In this document: positions 10,526 to 54,703 of the stretch, one piece after another | Layout: the number at the start of each line of letters is the position of its first letter | How positions within the stretch are numbered: the stretch's first letter is position 1 | Source: Yoonia sp. | GTDB taxonomy: Bacteria; Pseudomonadota; Alphaproteobacteria; Rhodobacterales; Rhodobacteraceae | Reading direction: 5' to 3' | Length of the DNA: 64,000 bases | Assembly: GCF_018402175.1 (NCBI RefSeq) | Contig: NZ_JAGYJK010000018.1 | Location: 248,001 to 312,000, forward strand | Made by a program: the position numbers and the translations under genes | Notes under the pieces: model-generated | Seen by the model: only the letters and a program-made list of their open reading frames with translations | Told to the model about the DNA's origin: nothing | Database searches by the model: none

Positions 10526-11545
10526 TTAGCCCCAGCAGAGGTTCTGACCTTCGACGACGTTGATGCTGTCAACCCCATCGGCAGGGGTATCGGTGACAAG
10601 GGCGACGCCCGTGTCAAAGAAATCCTTGCCGGGGGTGTTTTCAGGCAATGTACCATCGGCGGCAAAGGCGGCAATCGCCTCGATCCCGAGGGAGGCCATG
10701 CGCAGCGGGTATTGCTGCGATGTGGCACCGATCACGCCGTCAGCGACGTTCTGCACACCGGGGCAGCCACCATCGACAGAAACGATCAGCACGTCATTTT
10801 CACGGCCGATGGCGCGCAGCGCCTCGTAAGCACCGGCAGCGGCGGGTTCGTTGATCGTATAGACCACGTTGATCATCGGATCGATGGCCAGCAGGTTTTC
10901 CATCGCGCGGCGGCCGCCCTCTTCGTTGCCTGCGGTCACGTCATTGCCGACGATACGCGCATCGGTTTCATCACCGATCCGGTTCGCATCGCCCAGATCA
11001 ATGCCGAAGCCTTGCAAAAAGCCCTGGTTGCGCAGCACGTCCACCGATGGCTGGCTGACGGCCAGATCCAGCATCGCAATGCGTGCATCGGCAGCCGCGT
11101 CACCCAGCGAGGCAGCAGCCCATTGGCCGATCAGCTCACCCGCCAGAAAGTTGTCGGTGGCAAAGGTGGCGTTTGCGGCATCGATCGGTTCCAGCGGTGT
11201 ATCCAGCGCGATCACCAAAAGACCGGCATCGCGGGCCTGCGTGACCGCGCCGACGATGGACGATGTGTCCGACGCGGTGATCAGGATACCGGATGCGCCA
11301 TCAGCGATGCAGGTTTCGATGGCAGCAACCTGCGTTTCATGGTCGCCGTCAACGCGGCCGGCATAGGACCGCAGCGTGATGCCTGCTTGGGCGGCGGCGG
11401 CTTCGGCGCCTTCGCGCATCTTGACGAAGAACGGGTTGGTGTCGGTCTTGGTGATCAGACAGGCCGAGACGCCCTGCGCCTGGACCGATGTGGCAGCGAC
11501 AGTGGTGATGGCAACAAGCGCTGTCGAGATAAGCAGTTTTTTCAT
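10526..11545 (-). CDS. frcB: Periplasmic sugar-binding protein (FrcB-like)
   Basis: This is a 339-residue type I periplasmic binding protein. A Sec signal peptide ([19 protein letters not shown], cleavage after SVQA) precedes a ribose/fructose-binding fold ([60 protein letters not shown]). The ATG at 11545 has a strong ribosome site (GGGAGGAAATC) directly upstream; the longer open frame to 11617 is not needed. It is first in frcBCA and divergent from the ROK regulator at 11717. Fructose is the best guess for the ligand by overall likeness to FrcB. Confidence 0.92.
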
Positions 11546-11644
11546 GATTTCCTCCCAGAAATTTAGGGCCGTTTGCCTGCCTGCGGCGCAGGCCGGACCA
11601 TCGGCGAATGACCGCAAAAGAGGCGATTCGTGTCAGGTTGTCAA

Positions 11645-11667
11645 TTTATTAATTAACTTTATTAATT
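11645..11667. promoter_or_regulatory. Direct repeat TTTATTAATT x2 between frcB and the ROK gene
   Basis: Two identical 10-base AT-rich units start 13 bases apart in an otherwise GC-rich divergent promoter region. ROK repressors such as Mlc and NagC bind AT-rich sites, so this is the best candidate operator for the adjacent ROK regulator acting on frcBCA and on itself. That assignment is inference from position and composition. Confidence 0.5.
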
Positions 11668-11716
11668 TATGAAATGGCGCTAGAAAGATCCCAAATGGCG
11701 GGCAAAGGTATGTCAG

Positions 11717-12898
11717 ATGGATGACGGATTGGTCAGATCGCTCAGCATGGGGCTGAGCCAGAAAGGTGTCCGCGACCATAACGAGCGGCTGCTCTTGTCG
11801 TTGCTCCAACGGCACGGATCATTGCCCGCGCCGGACCTTGCGCGCCTGTCGCACCTGTCACCGCCCACGATTTCTGCGATCCTGCGCAAGCTGGAATCGG
11901 ACGGGTTGTTGACGCGTGGCGATCCTTTGCGGGGCAAAGTCGGCAAACCTTCGGTTCCCATGATGCTTGACAAGAACGGCGTCTATTCCATCGGGATCAA
12001 GATCGGTCGGCGGTCTGCAAATTTTCTGCTGACGGATTTCACCGGCGGCATCCGGTTGCACCGTCACGTCACCTATACCCATCCCCTTCCGCGCGAGGTG
12101 TTCGGCTTTGTGCAGACAGGTCTCGCCGCTGCGGCCAGCGATCTGAGCCACAGCGAATTGGCCAGAATATGTGGCATCGGCATCGCGGCCCCCTTTGATC
12201 TATGGAACTGGCACGACCTGACAGGGCCGAACGCGGCAGAATTCCAATCCTGGAAGAACATCGATTTCACCGCAGAAATGGCGCGGTTTACCGATCTGCC
12301 TGTCTTTATCATCAATGATGCAACGGCGGGCTGTCAGGCAGAACATCTTTACGGGCGCGGCAAGCAGTTTCGCGACTATGCCTATTTCTTTGTAGGTGCC
12401 TTTGTCGGCGGCGGCATCGTGCTGAACAATGCGGTCTATGAGGGACGGCTGGGCAATGCAGGCGCGCTGGGGTCATTGCGCAGCGTCGGGCCGAATGGCG
12501 AAAGCCGCCAATTGGTTGACACAGCGTCGATCCATACTTTGGAGGCGCGTTTGCGGCAGGCCGGGCATAACCCGATCACGCTTTGGAACACTCCGCAAAG
12601 CTGGACCGATCTTGCCGATCATGTGACGCCGTGGCTGGACCAGACCGCGATCGAGCTTGCAAAGGCGAGCTTGTCCACCTGCGCGGTCATCGATTTCGAG
12701 GCGATCATCATCGACGGGGCCTTTCCACCCGCCATCCGCGAAGAACTGGTCAAAAAGGTCCGTCGCGCCATCGAGACAGAGGACACGCGCGGGCTGATCC
12801 TGCCGGTGATCGAAAGCGGCAGCATCGGCAGCGATGCGCGCGCATTGGGTGCTGCGTGCAGCCCGGTCCTGTCGCAGTTCATGCTGAACAACAATTGA
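11717..12898 (+). CDS. ROK-family transcriptional regulator
   Basis: The 393-residue protein has an N-terminal winged helix (DLARLSHLSPPTISAILRKL, ESDGLLTR) and a C-terminal ROK sugar-kinase-like fold (YSIGIKIGRRSANFLLTDF, GIGIAAPFDLW, VINDATAGCQAE, GAFVGGGIVLNN). It probably represses the divergent frcBCA genes and is relieved by the sugar or its phosphate. The family's cysteine-rich zinc motif (CxCGxxGC), expected after the GALGS segment, is absent; that place reads SLRSVGPNGESRQL. A catalytic kinase role is therefore unlikely. The AT-rich direct repeats at 11645-11667 are its likely target. Confidence 0.9.
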   Translation: MDDGLVRSLSMGLSQKGVRDHNERLLLSLLQRHGSLPAPDLARLSHLSPPTISAILRKLESDGLLTRGDPLRGKVGKPSVPMMLDKNGVYSIGIKIGRRSANFLLTDFTGGIRLHRHVTYTHPLPREVFGFVQTGLAAAASDLSHSELARICGIGIAAPFDLWNWHDLTGPNAAEFQSWKNIDFTAEMARFTDLPVFIINDATAGCQAEHLYGRGKQFRDYAYFFVGAFVGGGIVLNNAVYEGRLGNAGALGSLRSVGPNGESRQLVDTASIHTLEARLRQAGHNPITLWNTPQSWTDLADHVTPWLDQTAIELAKASLSTCAVIDFEAIIIDGAFPPAIREELVKKVRRAIETEDTRGLILPVIESGSIGSDARALGAACSPVLSQFMLNNN

Positions 12899-44758: not shown

Positions 44759-45945
44759 ATCTTAAGGAACGTCTGATCAACGTCTTCGGCTGCGCCGACA
44801 TTGCCGCTTGATGGCACCATGGGGCCAGACAGGCACCGTTTCCAGTGATTTTCGCGCTGTTTGAGCCGCCTGAGCGGCGTCGATGCCGATTTCGGACAGA
44901 CTCGTCCTCATGCCAGCAGCCGTCGTCGCACGAGGAACAGGTTGCCGAGTGCGAACAGGGTGAACAGATGCGCCCGGTTCTTGGCCAGCCCCCGATAGCG
45001 GGTCTTCATATGACCGAACTGGCGCTTGATGACGCGGAAAGGATGCTCGACCTTTGCACGCACCTTGGCGATGATCCGGTTGATCTCTTCGTCGATGGGG
45101 TCGAGCTGGCCGCCCTTGGACGCCTTGCGCATCACGCCCCAGACCTTGCCTTCCTTGCTGAAGGCGGCCTCGCGCTCGGCGCTGACATAGCCCTTGTCGG
45201 CCCAGACAGATTTCTCTTCGCCATGGAGCAGCTCATCCCAGACCCGGCTGTCATGCACCTTTGCGGTCGTGGCCTCGAGGCTGTGGACGGTGCCGCTGTC
45301 CACATCGACGCCGACGTGAGCCTTCATACCAAAATACCAGTCGTTGCCCTTTTTTGTCGAAGACATCTCCGGGTCTCGTGCCTTGGCTTGGTTCTTGGTC
45401 GAGGACGGCGCGTCGATGATCGTCGCATCTACCAACGTGCCAGAGCGCAGCGTGATCCCCTTGTCAGCCAGATGCGCATTCACATCGGCGAAGATCGCCT
45501 CGGTCAGCCCATGACGCTCCAGCAGATGCCGGAAGTTGAGGATCGTTGTCTCGTCCGGAATGCGGTCATCGCCCAACTCGATCCCAGCGAACCGGCGCAT
45601 GGCCTCACTGTCATACAGCGTCTCTTCGGCCATCGGATCGCTCAGGGCGTACCAGTTCTGCAGGAAGTAAATGCGCAGCATCGTCTCCAGCGGCATCGGC
45701 GGTCGCCCGCCCTTCAGCCCAGCCTTTGGGTAGTGCGGTTCGATCAACGCCTGCAAACGCATCCACGGAACCACCGCATCCATATCTGCCAGAAACTGCT
45801 CGCGTCGCGTGACCTTCCTCTTCATTGCATCACGAAGTCCGGGAATGGCGGGCTGTTTGGGCATCGGCGCGGTCTCCTTCAGTCGTTGCCCGCAGCCTAC
45901 CACATCACGCCAAAAGCGGCAGGTTTTTCAGACGTTCCTTAAGAT
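44759..45945 (-). mobile_element. IS5-family insertion sequence (intact)
   Basis: An 18-base perfect inverted repeat bounds the element: ATCTTAAGGAACGTCTGA at 44759-44776 and its complement at 45928-45945. One transposase gene fills the 1187 bases between. I see no convincing target duplication in the flanks. Confidence 0.9.
44908..45864 (-). CDS. IS5-family transposase (IS5 group)
   Basis: The 318-residue DDE transposase has the IS5-group N-terminus (MPLETMLRIYFLQNWYALSD, DETTILNFRHLLERHGL) and the catalytic triad in TLVDATIIDAP, WADKGYVS and KVRAKVEHPFRVIKRQFG. The frame is open to 45903; the ATG at 45864 begins the homology. It looks complete and the element has intact ends, so it is probably active. 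It lies between the coiled-coil gene and the FAH locus. Confidence 0.95.
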   Translation of the reverse strand: MPKQPAIPGLRDAMKRKVTRREQFLADMDAVVPWMRLQALIEPHYPKAGLKGGRPPMPLETMLRIYFLQNWYALSDPMAEETLYDSEAMRRFAGIELGDDRIPDETTILNFRHLLERHGLTEAIFADVNAHLADKGITLRSGTLVDATIIDAPSSTKNQAKARDPEMSSTKKGNDWYFGMKAHVGVDVDSGTVHSLEATTAKVHDSRVWDELLHGEEKSVWADKGYVSAEREAAFSKEGKVWGVMRKASKGGQLDPIDEEINRIIAKVRAKVEHPFRVIKRQFGHMKTRYRGLAKNRAHLFTLFALGNLFLVRRRLLA

Positions 45946-46420
45946 AGACGTTTCCAGTCGGCGTGCGAAAATACGGTAGCTTGCATGCGGCGCTGCCCTT
46001 TTATGCTCAATTCACCTTCGGGCGTCAGGAGGCGGTTCTGGTCGGCCGGCGGCAGTTTTCCCGATAAAGGCGCGCACCATGTCACGGTTGGTTGCCGATG
46101 TGATCTGAATCCATGATCATCGGGGCTTGCCCCGCATGCGCCAACCAGCGATGCGATTTCTATGACGCCTCCTAACCCGGCTTTGGCGTACGGGTGGCGT
46201 CGAGCGGTGCTTTGTCGCGGGTGTTGCTGATGCGTGAGATTGGCCCAGCATTTTTGATGCATCACCGCGCTTTGCTGTCGCGAACATCCGCTTGATCCCA
46301 TTTGGCAGTCGCGGCCATTGATCGGCCTCGTCATCAACCAATTACAGCATTGGTCAGATTGATCTCTCGCTGCGCGCTATCTACTAGTGTGCGTGAAATC
46401 ATGAAAACTGGAGCGGTAGA
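45946..46420. other. Region between the IS element and the FAH gene
   Basis: No supportable gene. A 132-codon minus frame (45939-46337) has a random-looking translation with no domain. The useful content is the palindrome at 46337-46354 and the promoter of the FAH-family gene. Confidence 0.5.
46337..46354. promoter_or_regulatory. ACCAAT-N6-ATTGGT operator upstream of the first FAH gene
   Basis: A perfect 6+6 inverted repeat with a 6-base centre lies 66 bases before the FAH start. The identical half-sites and spacing recur at 47872-47889 over the start of the GntR regulator gene, so it is the probable binding site of that regulator. Confidence 0.75.
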
Positions 46421-47104
46421 ATGTCCGATTTTGTCATCCCATTGCCTGCGGTCACAACAATACCTGTGGCTTCGGGCGGGTCTTTTCCTGTGCGGCGCGT
46501 CTATTGCATCGGGCGCAATTATGCCGCCCATGCCATTGAAATGGGCCATGACCCTGACCGCGAAGCGCCGTTCTTTTTCCAGAAAAACCCCAATAATCTA
46601 GATTGCACCGGCACATTCCCCTATCCACCCCATACGTCCGATGTCCATCACGAGGCTGAATTGACCGTCGTTCTTAAGGCCGGCGGCACGAATATCGCGG
46701 TCGAGGATGCGCTTGATCTGGTGTATGGCTACGCGCTGTCGCTGGATATGACGCGCCGCGATCTTCAGGGCGAGATGAAAAAAGCAGGGCGCCCGTGGGA
46801 AATCGGGAAGGCGTTTGAACGCTCTGCCCCGATTGGTCCGATCCACACCGTCAGCGAAGTCGGTCATCTTGATAGCGGCGCGATCACCCTGAAAGTGAAC
46901 GGCGAATTGCGCCAGCAAGGCGATCTGAACCAGCTGATCTGGAAGACATCCGAGATGATTTCCTATCTGTCGGAATATTTCGAACTGGCCGCAGGCGATG
47001 TGATCATGACTGGCACACCATCAGGCGTCGGACCCGTGGTCAAAGGCGATGTGATGGAAATGGAAATTGCCGGATTGGGCAGCCTGACCGTCACCGTGAC
47101 CTGA
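46421..47104 (+). CDS. Fumarylacetoacetate hydrolase-family protein (fumarylpyruvate hydrolase-like)
   Basis: The 227-residue FAH-family enzyme resembles FAHD1 and fumarylpyruvate hydrolases, which split or decarboxylate acylpyruvates in aromatic-ring catabolism. Metal-site motifs are visible: YCIGRNYAAHAIEMG at the start, the acid pair in HHEAELTVVL, a further acidic residue in YALSLDMTRRDLQ, and GTPSGVGPV near the end. A palindrome identical in half-sites to that of the GntR gene lies upstream. The substrate is unknown; the cluster also holds a second FAH protein and an ABC importer. Confidence 0.9.
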   Translation: MSDFVIPLPAVTTIPVASGGSFPVRRVYCIGRNYAAHAIEMGHDPDREAPFFFQKNPNNLDCTGTFPYPPHTSDVHHEAELTVVLKAGGTNIAVEDALDLVYGYALSLDMTRRDLQGEMKKAGRPWEIGKAFERSAPIGPIHTVSEVGHLDSGAITLKVNGELRQQGDLNQLIWKTSEMISYLSEYFELAAGDVIMTGTPSGVGPVVKGDVMEMEIAGLGSLTVTVT

Positions 47105-47169
47105 CTGAATCTGAGATCGCACCCACGGCCTGTTTGATGCGGGCGTGGGGGCGCAGAGACGCCGATGGA

Positions 47170-47862
47170 TCAAGCATATTCTTCGGGAATACCCAAATTC
47201 ATCGACGGCAAAATACGGCTGTAAACCGATCGCAAATGATCAATCATTGATTGTGCCGCCAGATCCGCGTCATGGTTCAGGATCGCTTGCACGATCACGT
47301 CATGTTCACGGAAACTGGAATAACCATCGGCAGGTTTGATAGTCTTGCGCGGCTGTCCCCAAACCACAGACCTGCGCACGACATTCAATGTCTCGAAGTA
47401 ATACAGATGCAACTGGTTTTGCGATGCTCGTGCAATCGCATGGTGCAGTTTATTGTCCCACGCCTCGTAGCCGCGCCAATCGGGTGCATTGCGGCAGCGA
47501 TCCGCGCAATGCTGGATTTCCGCGTGATCGGCCTTTTTGCCATAAATCGCAGCAAGCCGTGCCAGTGCCGGCTCGATCGTGAGACGCACCGACACCACTT
47601 GCGCAGGTTTCACCCGATCGCGCAGATAGGTGACATCCTCTAGGTTCAGCACCGGTCGCGCACCAAGGAATGTGCCGCGCCCAACATGCCGCCAGATCAG
47701 CCCCTGCCCTTCGAGCTCGGCCAAAGCGCGGCGTAGCTGGTTACGCGCGACTCCTAAGGCTTGGCACATCTCGCGTTCGCACGGCAGCCTGTCGCTATGG
47801 GCATAGCCGTGGCTGTCGATCATCTGTTTGACGCGCTGGACAAGTATTTCGGTCTTTGACAT
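47170..47862 (-). CDS. GntR-family regulator (FCD type)
   Basis: The 230-residue regulator has an N-terminal winged helix (LVQRVKQMIDSHGYAHSDRL, PCEREMCQALGVARNQLRRA) and a C-terminal FCD helical domain (RLTIEPALARLAAIYG, WDNKLHHAIARAS, EHDVIVQAILNHD). The FCD metal-site histidines are present (HHAI, EHDVI, DHL). Such regulators respond to organic acids, which suits the two FAH enzymes beside it. The ATG at 47862 has GGAA before it; an in-frame start 7 codons upstream lies inside the palindrome at 47872-47889, its likely own operator. Confidence 0.9.
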   Translation of the reverse strand: MSKTEILVQRVKQMIDSHGYAHSDRLPCEREMCQALGVARNQLRRALAELEGQGLIWRHVGRGTFLGARPVLNLEDVTYLRDRVKPAQVVSVRLTIEPALARLAAIYGKKADHAEIQHCADRCRNAPDWRGYEAWDNKLHHAIARASQNQLHLYYFETLNVVRRSVVWGQPRKTIKPADGYSSFREHDVIVQAILNHDADLAAQSMIDHLRSVYSRILPSMNLGIPEEYA

Positions 47863-47871
47863 CGCGTTCCG

Positions 47872-47889
47872 ACCAATCGGCATATTGGT
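47872..47889. promoter_or_regulatory. ACCAAT-N6-ATTGGT operator at the GntR promoter
   Basis: The same half-sites and 6-base spacing as at 46337-46354. It lies 9 bases upstream of the GntR start and between it and the divergent FAH-ssuABC-like unit, a good place for autoregulation and control of both directions. Confidence 0.75.
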
Positions 47890-48032
47890 TGATTGATTTC
47901 AGGGATACAAAACCATCTTGATATTAGCAAGTGGGTTCCCGCCGGCGGTCGTGAGGCCATCATGCTGCATGTATGATGGTTCGGTATCGCGTCAGGGATC
48001 AGCCCGCATGCGTTTTTCACGGGGGAATATTT

Positions 48033-48947
48033 ATGAGACTGGCGACACTTTTAATCGGTGGAAAACCCGCTGCTGCGGCGCAAATGGCAAGCGGCGCATG
48101 GTTGAACATCGCCCAAGCAGCAGCCGCTGATCCACAAACAACGGTGGAGGCAGACAGCCTGCAATCGCTGATCCAAGGCGGTGATGCGGCAATGGCTGCC
48201 GTGGTCGCCCTTATGGCCCAAGCGGATAGCGGCCAGCATGCAGATGCCGTCGTGTCTGACGCTGTGCTCATGGCTCCAATCCCCTATCCGCGCAAAAATA
48301 TCTTTTGCGTCGGGCGTAATTACGCCGAACATATCGCCGAAGGCGAAAAGGCGCAAAACATCAAAGTCGGCGTCACCGAACATCCGGTGTTCTTTACCAA
48401 ACCGCCGACATCTGTCGTGGCACCAGATGGTGATGTACTGATCTTCCCCACCGTATCCCAAGACATCGACTACGAGGTGGAACTGGCCGTCATCATCGGC
48501 AAGCCCGGACGCAACATCGCCAAAGCCGATGCTTTTGATCACGTTTTCGGCTATACGATTTTGAATGATATCACCGCCCGCGACGTCCAGCGCCGCCATG
48601 GCGGACAGTATTTCAAAGGAAAAGGGTTTGACGGGTCCTGCCCCATCGGGCCTTGGATCGTCACAAAAGACGCGATCAAGGACCCGCATGATCTGTCAAT
48701 CCGGCTCAGCGTGAACGGCCAACAACGCCAGAACGGCAAAACGGCTGATATGATTTTCGATATTCCAACGCTGATCGCATCCCTGTCCGAGGGTCTGACC
48801 TTGGAACCGGGCGACATCATTGCCACCGGCACACCGTCGGGCGTTGGCTATGCGATGGACCCGCCGCAGTTTTTGAAAGCGGGGGATCAAGTTGTCTGTG
48901 ATGTGTCCCAGATCGGACAACTGGCAAATACCGTGCGCAACGCATGA
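48033..48947 (+). CDS. Fumarylacetoacetate hydrolase-family protein (second copy)
   Basis: The 304-residue FAH-family enzyme has an N-terminal extension of about 80 residues (RLATLLIGGKPAAAAQM) before the core, as in ureidoglycolate-lyase-like and 2-hydroxyhepta-2,4-diene-1,7-dioate isomerase-like members. Core motifs are IFCVGRNYAEHI, the acid pair in DYEVELAVII, YTILNDITARDVQ and GTPSGVGYAM. The ATG at 48033 follows GGGGGAA; the frame is open further upstream without homology. It heads a unit with the ABC genes and differs clearly from the FAH protein at 46421, so the two are not a recent duplication. Confidence 0.9.
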   Translation: MRLATLLIGGKPAAAAQMASGAWLNIAQAAAADPQTTVEADSLQSLIQGGDAAMAAVVALMAQADSGQHADAVVSDAVLMAPIPYPRKNIFCVGRNYAEHIAEGEKAQNIKVGVTEHPVFFTKPPTSVVAPDGDVLIFPTVSQDIDYEVELAVIIGKPGRNIAKADAFDHVFGYTILNDITARDVQRRHGGQYFKGKGFDGSCPIGPWIVTKDAIKDPHDLSIRLSVNGQQRQNGKTADMIFDIPTLIASLSEGLTLEPGDIIATGTPSGVGYAMDPPQFLKAGDQVVCDVSQIGQLANTVRNA

Positions 48948-49007: not shown

Positions 49008-50030
49008 ATGACTACCAGAAGAACCTTTACAATGTTGCTGGCGACCGTTCCTGTCTTCGGCTTACTCAGTACTGTCGCGATGGCACAGGATTTGCGCGAT
49101 GTGACATTCGTCCAGCCCAGCCCATCGGCGATCAACTCGTTTCCGGTATTCGTCGCAATCGGCGAAGGCTATTTCGCAGAAGAAGGCTTGAACGTCACCG
49201 TTGAATCGATCAACGGCTCAGGCGCTGTGCTGCAAGCACTGGCCGCCGGTCAGGCCGAATTTGGCCGTCCCGGCCCCGGCCCTGTTCTTGCGGCACGGGC
49301 GCGTGGCGAAGATGCGGTCTTTATCTATAACGTCGCGGCGCGCAGTAACTTTGGCGTCGTCGTGCGTGCGGATTCCGACATTCAAGGCCCCGAAGGTCTG
49401 CGTGGCAAAGTCATCGGCACCGGCACCGCCGATGGCGCAGAAGTCGGTTTCGCCCGCAATGTCATGGCCGGCTCTGGCCTGACCGAAGGCACCGATTACG
49501 AATTCCTGACCGTGGGTGACGGCGGCCCTGCGACCGTCGGCTTTACCACCGGCGCGATGGATGCCTATTCGGCCTCGACGGCGGATGCGGCGATCTTGAA
49601 CCAGCGCGGTATGGCTGTGCGTGACATCACACCAGGCGAATTCGCCCGCTTCTTTGGCAATGGCATTGCCACAATGGGGAACGTGATCGAAAACGACCCT
49701 GAAATGGTCGCAGGCTTTGTGCGCGCCTTTGCGCGTGGTCACGCCTTTGCGCTGGACGATGCCAACCGCGACGCCGTGCTGGCGCATCTGAAAGACGCCA
49801 ATCCGCAAGAAGGCGAAGATGTACAGTTCCAGTCGGCCTTGTTTGACGCGGTGCGTTCAAAAACGATCCCCGTCGATATGACCAACGGTCTTGGCTACCA
49901 GCCCCCCGAGGTTTGGGAAGAATGGCAAGACAGCCTTGTGTCAGGTGGCGATCTGGCGGCACCCCTGCCCGATCTGACCGCAGCCTATACCAACGCATTC
50001 ACCGCTCTGGCGCATGAGGCGATGAAGTAA
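49008..50030 (+). CDS. ABC transporter substrate-binding protein, NMT1/SsuA-like
   Basis: The 340-residue protein has an N-terminal Tat-like signal (TTRRTFTMLLA, cleavage after AMA) and the NMT1/THI5 fold (VTFVQPSPSAINSFPVFVAI, GEGYFAEEGLNVTVE, GSGAVLQALAAGQAEFG). This group binds nitrogen- or sulfur-containing organics such as alkanesulfonates, taurine, nitrate or pyrimidine precursors. A very good ribosome site (GGGAGGAG) precedes the ATG. A 12-base palindrome (CCGGTTAACCGG) lies at 48961-48972. Its ligand is probably the source of the acylpyruvate-like intermediates handled by the FAH enzymes. Confidence 0.9.
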   Translation: MTTRRTFTMLLATVPVFGLLSTVAMAQDLRDVTFVQPSPSAINSFPVFVAIGEGYFAEEGLNVTVESINGSGAVLQALAAGQAEFGRPGPGPVLAARARGEDAVFIYNVAARSNFGVVVRADSDIQGPEGLRGKVIGTGTADGAEVGFARNVMAGSGLTEGTDYEFLTVGDGGPATVGFTTGAMDAYSASTADAAILNQRGMAVRDITPGEFARFFGNGIATMGNVIENDPEMVAGFVRAFARGHAFALDDANRDAVLAHLKDANPQEGEDVQFQSALFDAVRSKTIPVDMTNGLGYQPPEVWEEWQDSLVSGGDLAAPLPDLTAAYTNAFTALAHEAMK

Positions 50031-50842
50031 TGACGACAATTTCCGCAGCCACGTCTGACGTGCAACCCGCCTTGGGCGCGCCCGTCTACGAGTTGACCCA
50101 TGTCAGCAAGACCTATGCACGCAACCGCGTGATTGCCCTTGATGACGTCAGCCTGACCTTACGCAAAGGCAGTTTTTCTTCGGTGATCGGCTCGAGTGGC
50201 TGCGGAAAATCAACACTTCTGAAAATTATGGCGGGGTTGATCCCGCCGACCAAGGGCCGCGTTGTCTTGCAGGGCAAACCCGTCACCGGCACCCGCCGTG
50301 ACATCGGCATGATGTTCCAGCAAGCAACGCTGTTCCCATGGCGGACCACGATTGAAAACATCGTGCTGCCAATCGAAATTCGTGACGGTCGCGCTGCTGC
50401 CGAAAAGGCCAAGGAAAAGGCACGCGCCTTGTTGGATATCGTCGGGCTGAATGGCTTTGAAGACGTCTTTCCAAATGAATTATCCGGTGGCATGGCGCAA
50501 CGCGCCTCGATCTGCCGGATGCTGATTACCGAACCTGCGGTCTTGTTGCTGGATGAACCGTTCAGTGCGCTGGATGAATTATCGCGCGATATGATGAATA
50601 TGGAATTACAGCGTATCTGCACCGAACAAAACGCCACCGCCTTTCTTGTGACCCATTCGATCCAAGAAGCGGTTATTTTGTCGGATGATATCTATGTCAT
50701 GAAACCACGCCCCGGTCGTCTGGCCGAGGTCGTAACCGTTGATCTGCCGCGTCCGCGCACGCTTGATATGATGACGACACCGAAATTTGGCGAGACCGTA
50801 AATTACATTCGCGGACTTTTGGACAAGGGAGAAGCGATGTGA
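50030..50842 (+). CDS. ABC transporter ATPase, SsuB/TauB-like
   Basis: The 270-residue ATPase has Walker A IGSSGCGKST, Q-loop MMFQQATLFPW, signature LSGGMAQR, Walker B LLLDEPFSALD and switch His in VTHSIQEAV. These are features of the nitrate/sulfonate/taurine group. The ATG shares one base with the TAA of the preceding binding-protein gene (TAATG), and the permease start overlaps its own end by 4 bases, so all three are tightly coupled. Confidence 0.94.
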   Translation: MTTISAATSDVQPALGAPVYELTHVSKTYARNRVIALDDVSLTLRKGSFSSVIGSSGCGKSTLLKIMAGLIPPTKGRVVLQGKPVTGTRRDIGMMFQQATLFPWRTTIENIVLPIEIRDGRAAAEKAKEKARALLDIVGLNGFEDVFPNELSGGMAQRASICRMLITEPAVLLLDEPFSALDELSRDMMNMELQRICTEQNATAFLVTHSIQEAVILSDDIYVMKPRPGRLAEVVTVDLPRPRTLDMMTTPKFGETVNYIRGLLDKGEAM

Positions 50843-51690
50843 GCGATGCAAACCTCAACACAGACGAAAACGTCACCCCCGATACGGTCTGGGTGGAACA
50901 CACATCTTTTGTCGATCAGATACCGCGCAGCATTCTGATGCTGTTCGTCTTTGCCGTCTTTGTCGGCCTGTGGCAGATCGCCACCAGCTTTAACCTTGTG
51001 TCCAGCATCGTGCTGCCAACACCGGTCGAGACATTCAACGACATGATCTTTGTCGGTAAAAACCTGCTCACGGGTGATTACATGCTGTCTGCGCTATGGA
51101 TCACCACAAAAGAGGTGATCTACGGCTTTGCGCTGGCCATGGCGATCGGCTTTTCGCTGGGGATTTTGGTGGGCGAAACCGCCTTTGGCGAACGCGCGAT
51201 CATGCCTTATCTGGTCGCCCTTGATACAATGCCCAAAGTGGCTTTTGCACCCTTGTTCATTGCGTGGCTCGGGTTTGGCATCGAATCCAAAGTGGCGCTT
51301 GCCGCCTTTATTGCGACCTTCCCGATTGTGGTCGGCACAGCCGCGGGCCTGCATGCGACGGATGAAAATTCGCGGATGTTGTTCAAGACGATGGGTGCCA
51401 GCCGCCTGCAAACCCTGTTCAAGATGAAACTGCCAATGGGGCTGCCGCAAATCTTTACCGGCCTGAAAATCGGCGCAGTCGGCGTCATGGCCGGTGCGAT
51501 CACCGCAGAATTCCTTGGCGGCGGCAAAGGCTTTGGTGAATTGATCCGCGTTGCGGCGTCACAACTGAATACACCACGGGTGTTTTCGCTGATCTTGTAT
51601 TTGAGCATCCTTGGCCTTGGGCTTTATGCCCTTGTCACATTCGCGCAGCGCAGGATCGTGTTCTGGCACCGCGACACGGTGTCAAAGTAA
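50839..51690 (+). CDS. ABC transporter permease, SsuC/TauC-like
   Basis: The 283-residue inner-membrane subunit has about six helices. The coupling loop is in RMLFKTMGASRLQTLFKMKL, and the signature LVALDTMPKVAFAPLFIAWL is typical of SsuC/TauC permeases. It starts with GTG at 50839, overlapping the ATPase stop (GTGA). A bidirectional terminator hairpin follows at 51706. Confidence 0.93.
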   Translation: MSDANLNTDENVTPDTVWVEHTSFVDQIPRSILMLFVFAVFVGLWQIATSFNLVSSIVLPTPVETFNDMIFVGKNLLTGDYMLSALWITTKEVIYGFALAMAIGFSLGILVGETAFGERAIMPYLVALDTMPKVAFAPLFIAWLGFGIESKVALAAFIATFPIVVGTAAGLHATDENSRMLFKTMGASRLQTLFKMKLPMGLPQIFTGLKIGAVGVMAGAITAEFLGGGKGFGELIRVAASQLNTPRVFSLILYLSILGLGLYALVTFAQRRIVFWHRDTVSK

Positions 51691-53985: not shown

Positions 53986-54703
53986 GGAACTGTTCCGATC
54001 TTTCAAATAGGAATCTGGGCTGTTGAAGCCTTTCGCATGCAATGCGCCAAATGCGGTCAAAATGCAAGTATACCATTGTACACCGCCCATCAATCGTGAC
54101 CAGTTCGGCAATTGGTCAGTGCATCCAGCATTTGCATTGCTGTGCCGGCACCGATCTGGCTTTCTCAGGAAACCAACACGCGACAACCTTTGCGCCCAAG
54201 CCGCGACAGCGCTCTGCGGCCCGGGCGGAATGAGACGCACTGTGCGCTGCGGCGGACAAGGCCGCGCTGGCGACCAGCACGCAGTGGCGGTGATTATGCG
54301 CAGCGCGTTCCTCGAAGGGGTTGGACGGCATGATCGCCTTTTCGAGGCGACACCTCCAACCCACGTCTGGCAATTCAGCGAACATGTCGTAATGCATAAG
54401 GGCAAGCTGTCCGCCACGGGCAGCACCGCGACCGCAGCAGATCAGAGGCTGCAAATAACGTTGTAAAGCTGCGGCAGGGCGGTTGATTTGGAACCATCCG
54501 CGAACGTCGTGATAGCACCACCATACCGTCAACCGCTAAGTGCTTGTTTTTATGGTGCCCCCACACGGACTCATACTCAGCCCTGTAAGCAACTTAAGTA
54601 GTTGATTTACAATGATTTGTGTATTTACCTCAAAATCAAGTTAGTACCATAAATCCAACATTTCTAGTACCATATCACTGGCAGCTTACGACTTCATGGA
54701 TCA
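53986..54703. other. Upstream region of icd, decayed DNA
   Basis: About 720 bases with no supportable gene. Overlapping minus frames (to 54532 and 54426) have arginine/alanine/cysteine-rich translations with no domain. From about 54590 the composition falls to AT-rich. The stretch marks the change from core genes to the mobile region. Confidence 0.45.

Follow-up and report, generated by a model that had tools for sequence, protein, structure and literature searches.

Predicted operators with outward-facing half-sites at an FCD-type GntR regulator gene and its hydrolase-importer cluster in Yoonia

Introduction

The published consensus of the FadR subfamily of GntR regulators is TKGT-N2/3-ACMA, in which GT and AC stand 3 or 2 nt apart and the half-sites face inward (PMC4494728, available text). 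According to the same text the inward palindrome is common but does not define the subfamily, with NanR and BioR as published exceptions. NanR from Escherichia coli binds direct GGTATA repeats with its dimers side by side (PMC8012715, available sections). Atu1419 is a tetrameric, autoregulated FCD regulator of the VanR group with the ligands Asn137, His141, His192 and His214 (PMC7797058, available sections). The available part of the subfamily survey states that protein-DNA contacts were inferred only from factors with sites fitting the TKGT/ACMA consensus (PMC4494728). A conserved class of outward-facing sites would escape searches built on the inward consensus.

Here we analyze a stretch of 64,000 nucleotides from Yoonia sp. 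(contig NZ_JAGYJK010000018.1, positions 248,001 to 312,000), referred to as the window. An initial annotation had noticed two copies of ACCAAT-N6-ATTGGT in one of its gene clusters, designated O1 and O2 below, and had proposed them as the binding motif of the encoded GntR protein.

Results

A two-hydrolase and importer cluster with its own regulator

The cluster consists of FAH-1 on the plus strand, gntR on the minus strand and, again all on the plus strand, FAH-2 followed by the genes for a substrate-binding protein, an ATPase and a permease (Table 1). Both hydrolases score below the NCBIfam cut-offs. The same cluster is present in the Yoonia vestfoldensis record L047, with a 95% identical regulator, and in six more named records (L048-L053, regulator 68-81% identical). 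Its distribution is patchy: among the genomes listed for the window's genus, a match at E 1e-52 is present in three and missing from at least 20. In some relatives the cluster also includes an Ldh_2 dehydrogenase, an AMP-ligase and a PanE-like reductase, assigned by Pfam on L034 only, and this does not settle the pathway. The gene for the substrate-binding protein appears in L034 as two separate reading frames (11263-12288).

An insertion sequence with 23-base inverted repeats at its ends occupies 44759-45945, about 390 bases upstream of O1. It encodes a DDE transposase on the minus strand (44908-45903) that is not matched in any of the 13 loci compared from relatives, and homology of the window to L047 starts only at 46287.

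Table 1 Features of the cluster in window coordinates; operators are predicted and promoter hexamers were read by eye.
Feature	Position	Strand	Description
Operator O1 (predicted)	46337..46354	.	ACCAAT-N6-ATTGGT, ACCAATTACAGCATTGGT; upstream of FAH-1
Accessory half-site ATTGAT	46358..46363	+	3 bases after O1, in the direction of its right arm; overlaps possible -35
Possible -35 TTGATC	46359-46364	+	Overlapped by accessory ATTGAT
Possible -10 TACTAG	46382..46387	+	17 bases after TTGATC; absent from consensus scan output
FAH-1	46421..47104	+	Fumarylacetoacetate-hydrolase family, 227 aa; Pfam PF01557, E 1.1e-54
gntR	47170..47862	-	FCD-type GntR regulator, 230 aa; Pfam PF00392 and PF07729; start set by comparison with relatives
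Operator O2 (predicted)	47872..47889	.	ACCAAT-N6-ATTGGT, ACCAATCGGCATATTGGT; 9 bases upstream of gntR ATG; common to divergent FAH-2
Accessory half-site ATTGAT (ATCAAT in gntR direction)	47892..47897	+	2 bases from O2; conserved ATCAAY
FAH-2	48033..48947	+	Fumarylacetoacetate-hydrolase family, 304 aa; Pfam PF01557, E 4.3e-79
NMT1/SsuA-like substrate-binding protein	49008..50030	+	Pfam PF09084; TIGR01728 below its cut-off
ABC transporter ATPase	50030..50842	+	Pfam PF00005
ABC transporter permease	50839..51690	+	Pfam PF00528

The regulator is an FCD (FadR-subfamily) GntR protein, a known family. It combines a GntR winged helix at the N-terminus (PF00392, E 2.9e-14, 52.9 bits against a cut-off of 27) with a C-terminal FCD domain (PF07729, E 1.5e-20), both scored on a 237-aa reading; the 230-aa reading used here begins at ATG 47862. 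The C-terminal part is all-helical in the AlphaFold2 model (mean pLDDT 88). The best matches of this model in the protein data bank are NanR (6on4, the top match), DhdR, Atu1419 and PmiR. Their TM-scores are close to 0.5 and the rmsd is large, which is what a difference in domain orientation would produce. None of the NCBIfam models for LldR, PdhR, GlcC, NanR, UxuR and ExuR scored above its cut-off, the best being LldR with 95.6 bits against 311. The DNA-contact arginines R30, R40 and R44 are invariant in 24 aligned proteins, as are D136, H140, H187 and H209. Judging from spacing and the available sections of PMC7797058, the arginines would correspond to residues of FadR and the latter four are likely the metal-ligand set of the FCD pocket, equivalent to that of Atu1419.

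O1 and O2 are the only exact copies in the genome

Both sites had been described as perfect 18-base palindromes. Positions, half-sites and spacing are as reported, but the symmetry stops at the 6-base spacers, which makes each site an interrupted palindrome with 6-base arms. O2 had been placed over the GntR start. It overlaps only the alternative upstream ATG 47883, while ATG 47862 is the start that fits the relatives, and the nine bases between this ATG and the edge of the site are equal in the closest relatives.

A genome-wide search, proposed with the initial annotation, found exact ACCAAT-N6-ATTGGT at O1 and O2 only in all 3,009,573 bases, compared with 0 copies of a reversed control pattern. 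About 0.09 exact copies per genome are expected from the base composition of the window (57% GC), and a similar random frequency elsewhere was not seen (0 others). Allowing up to one mismatch gave 8 sites genome-wide (control 0). One of these (54099-54116) precedes the conserved portion of a monomeric isocitrate dehydrogenase (IDH) and was rejected as evidence for a further target. It sits inside the longest IDH reading frame, ahead of the Pfam match, and is taken as chance since the close relative L047 has no site with up to two mismatches at IDH and the regional alignment to L047 ends before it. The remaining five one-mismatch sites are all on contigs other than the window's.

Across the family, the exact pattern occurs in 44 of 295 genomes, with 55 copies counted from the listing versus 12 for the reversed control. 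For 30 of the 55 copies the locus was fetched, and in 28 of these the sequence fetched contained no homologue of the regulator; an isolated exact copy in another place therefore says little. The telling fact is that two copies lie within 1.5 kb at two promoters. While the family copies without a GntR homologue would suit a reading of O1 and O2 as chance matches, the 2 found within 1.5 kb against 0.09 expected in the genome, together with their conservation in relatives, leave that reading a vanishingly small probability.

The gntR-side site is conserved among related regulators

After removal of identical proteins, we examined the 200 bases upstream of 35 distinct regulators that share at least 46% identity with that of the window. 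All but one of them, 34 in total, have an everted N6 pair with up to one mismatch there, compared with 0.0 (to one decimal) in dinucleotide-preserving shuffles. The single miss, L013, carries an N6 pair with two mismatches as well as an exact N5 pair. In the larger set of 102 classified upstream regions, which includes near-copies, the everted N6 pair occurred at up to one mismatch in 47, versus 0.04 in plain shuffles. The O2-type site stays at the gntR start in the orthologous loci examined while its spacer drifts. Uniqueness and conservation in relatives thus support the proposal that O1 and O2 are the predicted GntR binding motif, as far as sequence comparison can tell.

Alignment of 35 distinct gntR-side sites revealed near-invariant arms, whereas five of the six spacer columns hold at most 0.21 bit; the last spacer position is a purine in 34 of 35. 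Sites within 40 bases of the nominal start were aligned and up to two mismatches admitted, so the arm conservation is partly due to selection and the shuffles are the fair control. L018 (45% identical) has no site within 40 bases of the start and was left out. Two bases outside the ACCAAT arm the alignment shows a conserved ATCAAY box, and an ACCAAT-type direct repeat with N2 is present at 20 of the 35 group regulators, with 0.1 expected. Both this adjacent third half-site and the everted orientation of the main pair were overlooked in the initial annotation.

A terminator scan lists 47870-47891 as terminator-like on the plus strand, raising the question of whether O2 works at the RNA level near the gntR start, as a hairpin or terminator, instead of as a protein site. 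We regard this as very improbable. The arms show no covariation: 24 of 35 sites end in G and one in C, so that the last base can no longer pair with the first A, and no compensating change is seen. The same sequence also occurs upstream of FAH-1, in another context.

Sites at the FAH-1 and FAH-2 promoters

Of 29 FAH-1 upstream regions, 24 contain a site with up to two mismatches and one a site with three; in the other four, from relatives with a 62-72% identical FAH-1, none appears even when three mismatches are allowed. The count covers only loci for which the fetched sequence included an FAH-1 at 50% identity. Nine FAH-1 promoters with the site at -80 to -84 keep TTGATC 4 bases after the operator, and where these were inspected by eye a hexamer starting with TA follows 17 bases after TTGATC. 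In 11 relatives the site is found farther upstream (-163 to -179), where it may serve a second, divergent GntR paralogue instead. A consensus promoter scan returned nothing at O1 or O2, and all -35/-10 pairs given here were read by eye. The one promoter-like site of the scan, at 46393-46422, is below the shuffle average of 1.6. For gntR, TGAAAT at 47901-47896 is the candidate -10, again by eye.

FAH-2 and the importer genes lie behind O2. In an alignment of FAH-2 upstream regions, conservation in 80% of the rows was confined to the operator, a TTGAT-type stretch next to it and a few columns close to the start codon. A second everted site at FAH-2 is by eye absent in most genomes and present in L147 and L044. 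The regulon originally suggested, namely FAH-1, gntR itself and probably FAH-2 with the importer, is in line with the 24 of 29 FAH-1-side sites, the 34 of 35 gntR-side sites and the position of FAH-2 behind O2.

Several relatives have a second GntR, about 40% identical, adjoining FAH-1, and a different regulator such as this paralogue might use O1 and O2. In the more distant relatives L036, L037, L039 and L040 that have this arrangement, the FAH-1 promoter holds ATTGAT-N4-ATTGAT-like direct repeats with a 10-base period instead (by eye), and direct N4 pairs are frequent among the sister paralogues described below. We nevertheless consider a different regulator improbable, as the window genome contains a single match to GntR at E 1e-30, the site keeps within a few bases of the gntR start in the close relatives examined, and most paralogues with a recognizable site show other arrangements at their own promoters.

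Outward and inward arrangements of one half-site

O1 and O2 use the half-site of the FadR subfamily with the order reversed, facing outward across six bases (everted). No inward ATTGGT-N2/3/4-ACCAAT within two mismatches was found between 46000 and 48200, and at up to one mismatch inward N2-N4 pairs occur at 0 of the 35 regulators of the window's group; a few do turn up at two mismatches. A set of 50 sister paralogues, scored at up to one mismatch, is more mixed. Inward pairs were found with N2 in 20 and N3 in 6, everted pairs with N8 in 11, N5 in 6, N6 in 5 and N7 in 4, and a direct N4 pair in 27. The split by operator type is therefore imperfect, with everted N6 on both sides. Many sister-paralogue gntR genes show a distal ACCAAT-N4-ACCAAT at about -130 to -100, often plus a proximal inward pair; this distal repeat may be an operator that serves a divergent target gene.

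A tree of 95 rows, with many inner branches of low support and an arbitrary root, places the window's regulator in a set of 36 rows (support 96) with 35 everted-N6 labels and 0 inward ones. In the sister set of 50, 27 members have inward pairs and everted N6 is the sole type in 2. The survey also took in nine homologues belonging to other families of the class. At up to one mismatch, 8 of the nine carry an everted pair with N5 or N6, and 2 of the nine also have an inward N3 pair at one mismatch. Some of these outside homologues are placed basally in the sister set, so outward pairs may predate inward ones in these regulators.

Four records from other families (L154, L156, L158 and L160) have two everted sites upstream of the regulator, one with N6 (about -38 to -52) and one with N5 (about -125 to -138). 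One genome (L067/L113) encodes a 39% identical FCD-like regulator with an exact ACCAAT-N6-ATTGGT that is part of the longer palindrome GCATACCAATGCATGCATTGGTATGC, starting about 117 bases upstream.

Within the family, wing residue 62 is R in 35 of 35 group regulators and K in 26 of 26 inward-site paralogues. It was ruled out as a determinant of operator type by everted sites with K62 outside the family, found in five of eight homologues with a readable residue.

Discussion

Our analysis suggests that O1 and O2 are quite probably operators, with everted halves, of the cluster's own FCD-type GntR, which would repress itself and control FAH-1 as well as FAH-2 with the importer. The binding-motif interpretation of the initial annotation is supported to this extent. 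The recognized half-site would be the ATTGGT-type hexamer of the subfamily, its two strong halves facing outward across six bases. The likely gntR transcription start falls within O2 or shortly before it, suggesting that the regulator bound there represses gntR. The divergent FAH-2-importer operon and FAH-1 would also be under its control, from O2 and O1; the position of O1 just upstream of a likely -35 fits activation or repression of FAH-1. The response is probably to a carboxylic-acid intermediate bound by the FCD domain. Binding, direction of control, inducer class and stoichiometry are what we infer.

How a dimer would contact such a site can be pictured in two ways. Two FadR-like dimers may sit side by side on one DNA face, 20-21 bp or two helical turns apart, each with one strong inner and one weak outer half-site, so that the everted core consists of the inner halves of adjacent sites. 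The asymmetric dimer with one weak outer half is an idea borrowed from NanR (PMC8012715, available sections). Arrays with both an outward and an inward pair have same-direction half-sites mostly 20-22 bp apart (N5+N3, N5+N4, N8+N2; 23 in L026), about two turns, which fits two dimers on one face. This picture is weakened by the outer ATCAAY, which matches the inward partner ATTGGT at 3/6, and by the opposite flank, which is unlike it.

Alternatively, one dimer may grip both outward half-sites if its DNA-binding domains are spread apart or crossed compared with those of FadR, a possibility we hold to be rather doubtful. It would suit the symmetric core and the poor conservation of outer partners in distant members. 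The linker behind the wing (G67, R69, P70, N73, D76) is invariant in the 35 group regulators and variable in the 26 inward-site paralogues, as if the domain arrangement were constrained, but the linker region (residues 71-80) is the least confident in the model, with a mean pLDDT of 65. Moreover, conservation around the gntR-side site spans about -9 to +21, wider than one 17-18 bp site, and the wider group has both N5 and N6, which a rigid dimer would tolerate poorly. Two side-by-side dimers are thus preferred, only modestly, over one rearranged dimer.

More broadly, a large alphaproteobacterial FCD group may read ATTGGT outward (spacings of 5, 6 and 8), inward (2 and 3) and directly (2 and 4). 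We give roughly even chances to the proposal that the outward sites form an undescribed operator class, which may be ancestral, with inward sites arising within the group. Nuclear receptors likewise read one half-site in several relative arrangements. Related regulators that use the same half-site in different geometries constitute a natural series, making it testable how one fold adapts, and the motif is usable for the two-hydrolase and importer cluster.

A literature search found no description of this everted operator; RegPrecise and the supplements of PMC4494728 lay outside the search and may contain the group. GntR together with 'everted repeat' gave no match, and 'GntR', 'everted' and 'operator' jointly returned, by title, reviews of drug efflux pumps only. 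Both hexamers appear with GntR in papers such as PMC4746285 and PMC13274462, where, in the sections available, they belong to primer tables.

Compared with known systems, the regulator shares with FadR, PdhR, LldR and UxuR the same two domains, the invariant DNA-helix arginines and the TGGT/ACCA half-site, but the sites given for the subfamily in the available text are inward TKGT/ACMA, whereas ACCAAT-N6-ATTGGT faces outward (PMC4494728). NanR is the top fold match, and like NanR sites O2 also holds a direct half-site repeat, here with an 8-base period. Unlike in NanR, the core is everted and the direct N2 repeat merely accessory. The 32-residue N-terminal extension of NanR (PMC8012715, available sections) has no counterpart in the 230-aa protein, as its GntR domain begins near residue 7. 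Atu1419 resembles the Yoonia regulator in fold, in a similar metal-ligand pattern and in having two sites in one cluster, but its sites are ATGTATACAT palindromes of 10 bases separated by 190 bp (PMC7797058, available sections). Overall, the predicted operator geometry breaks with the published rule and has been retained across many genera.
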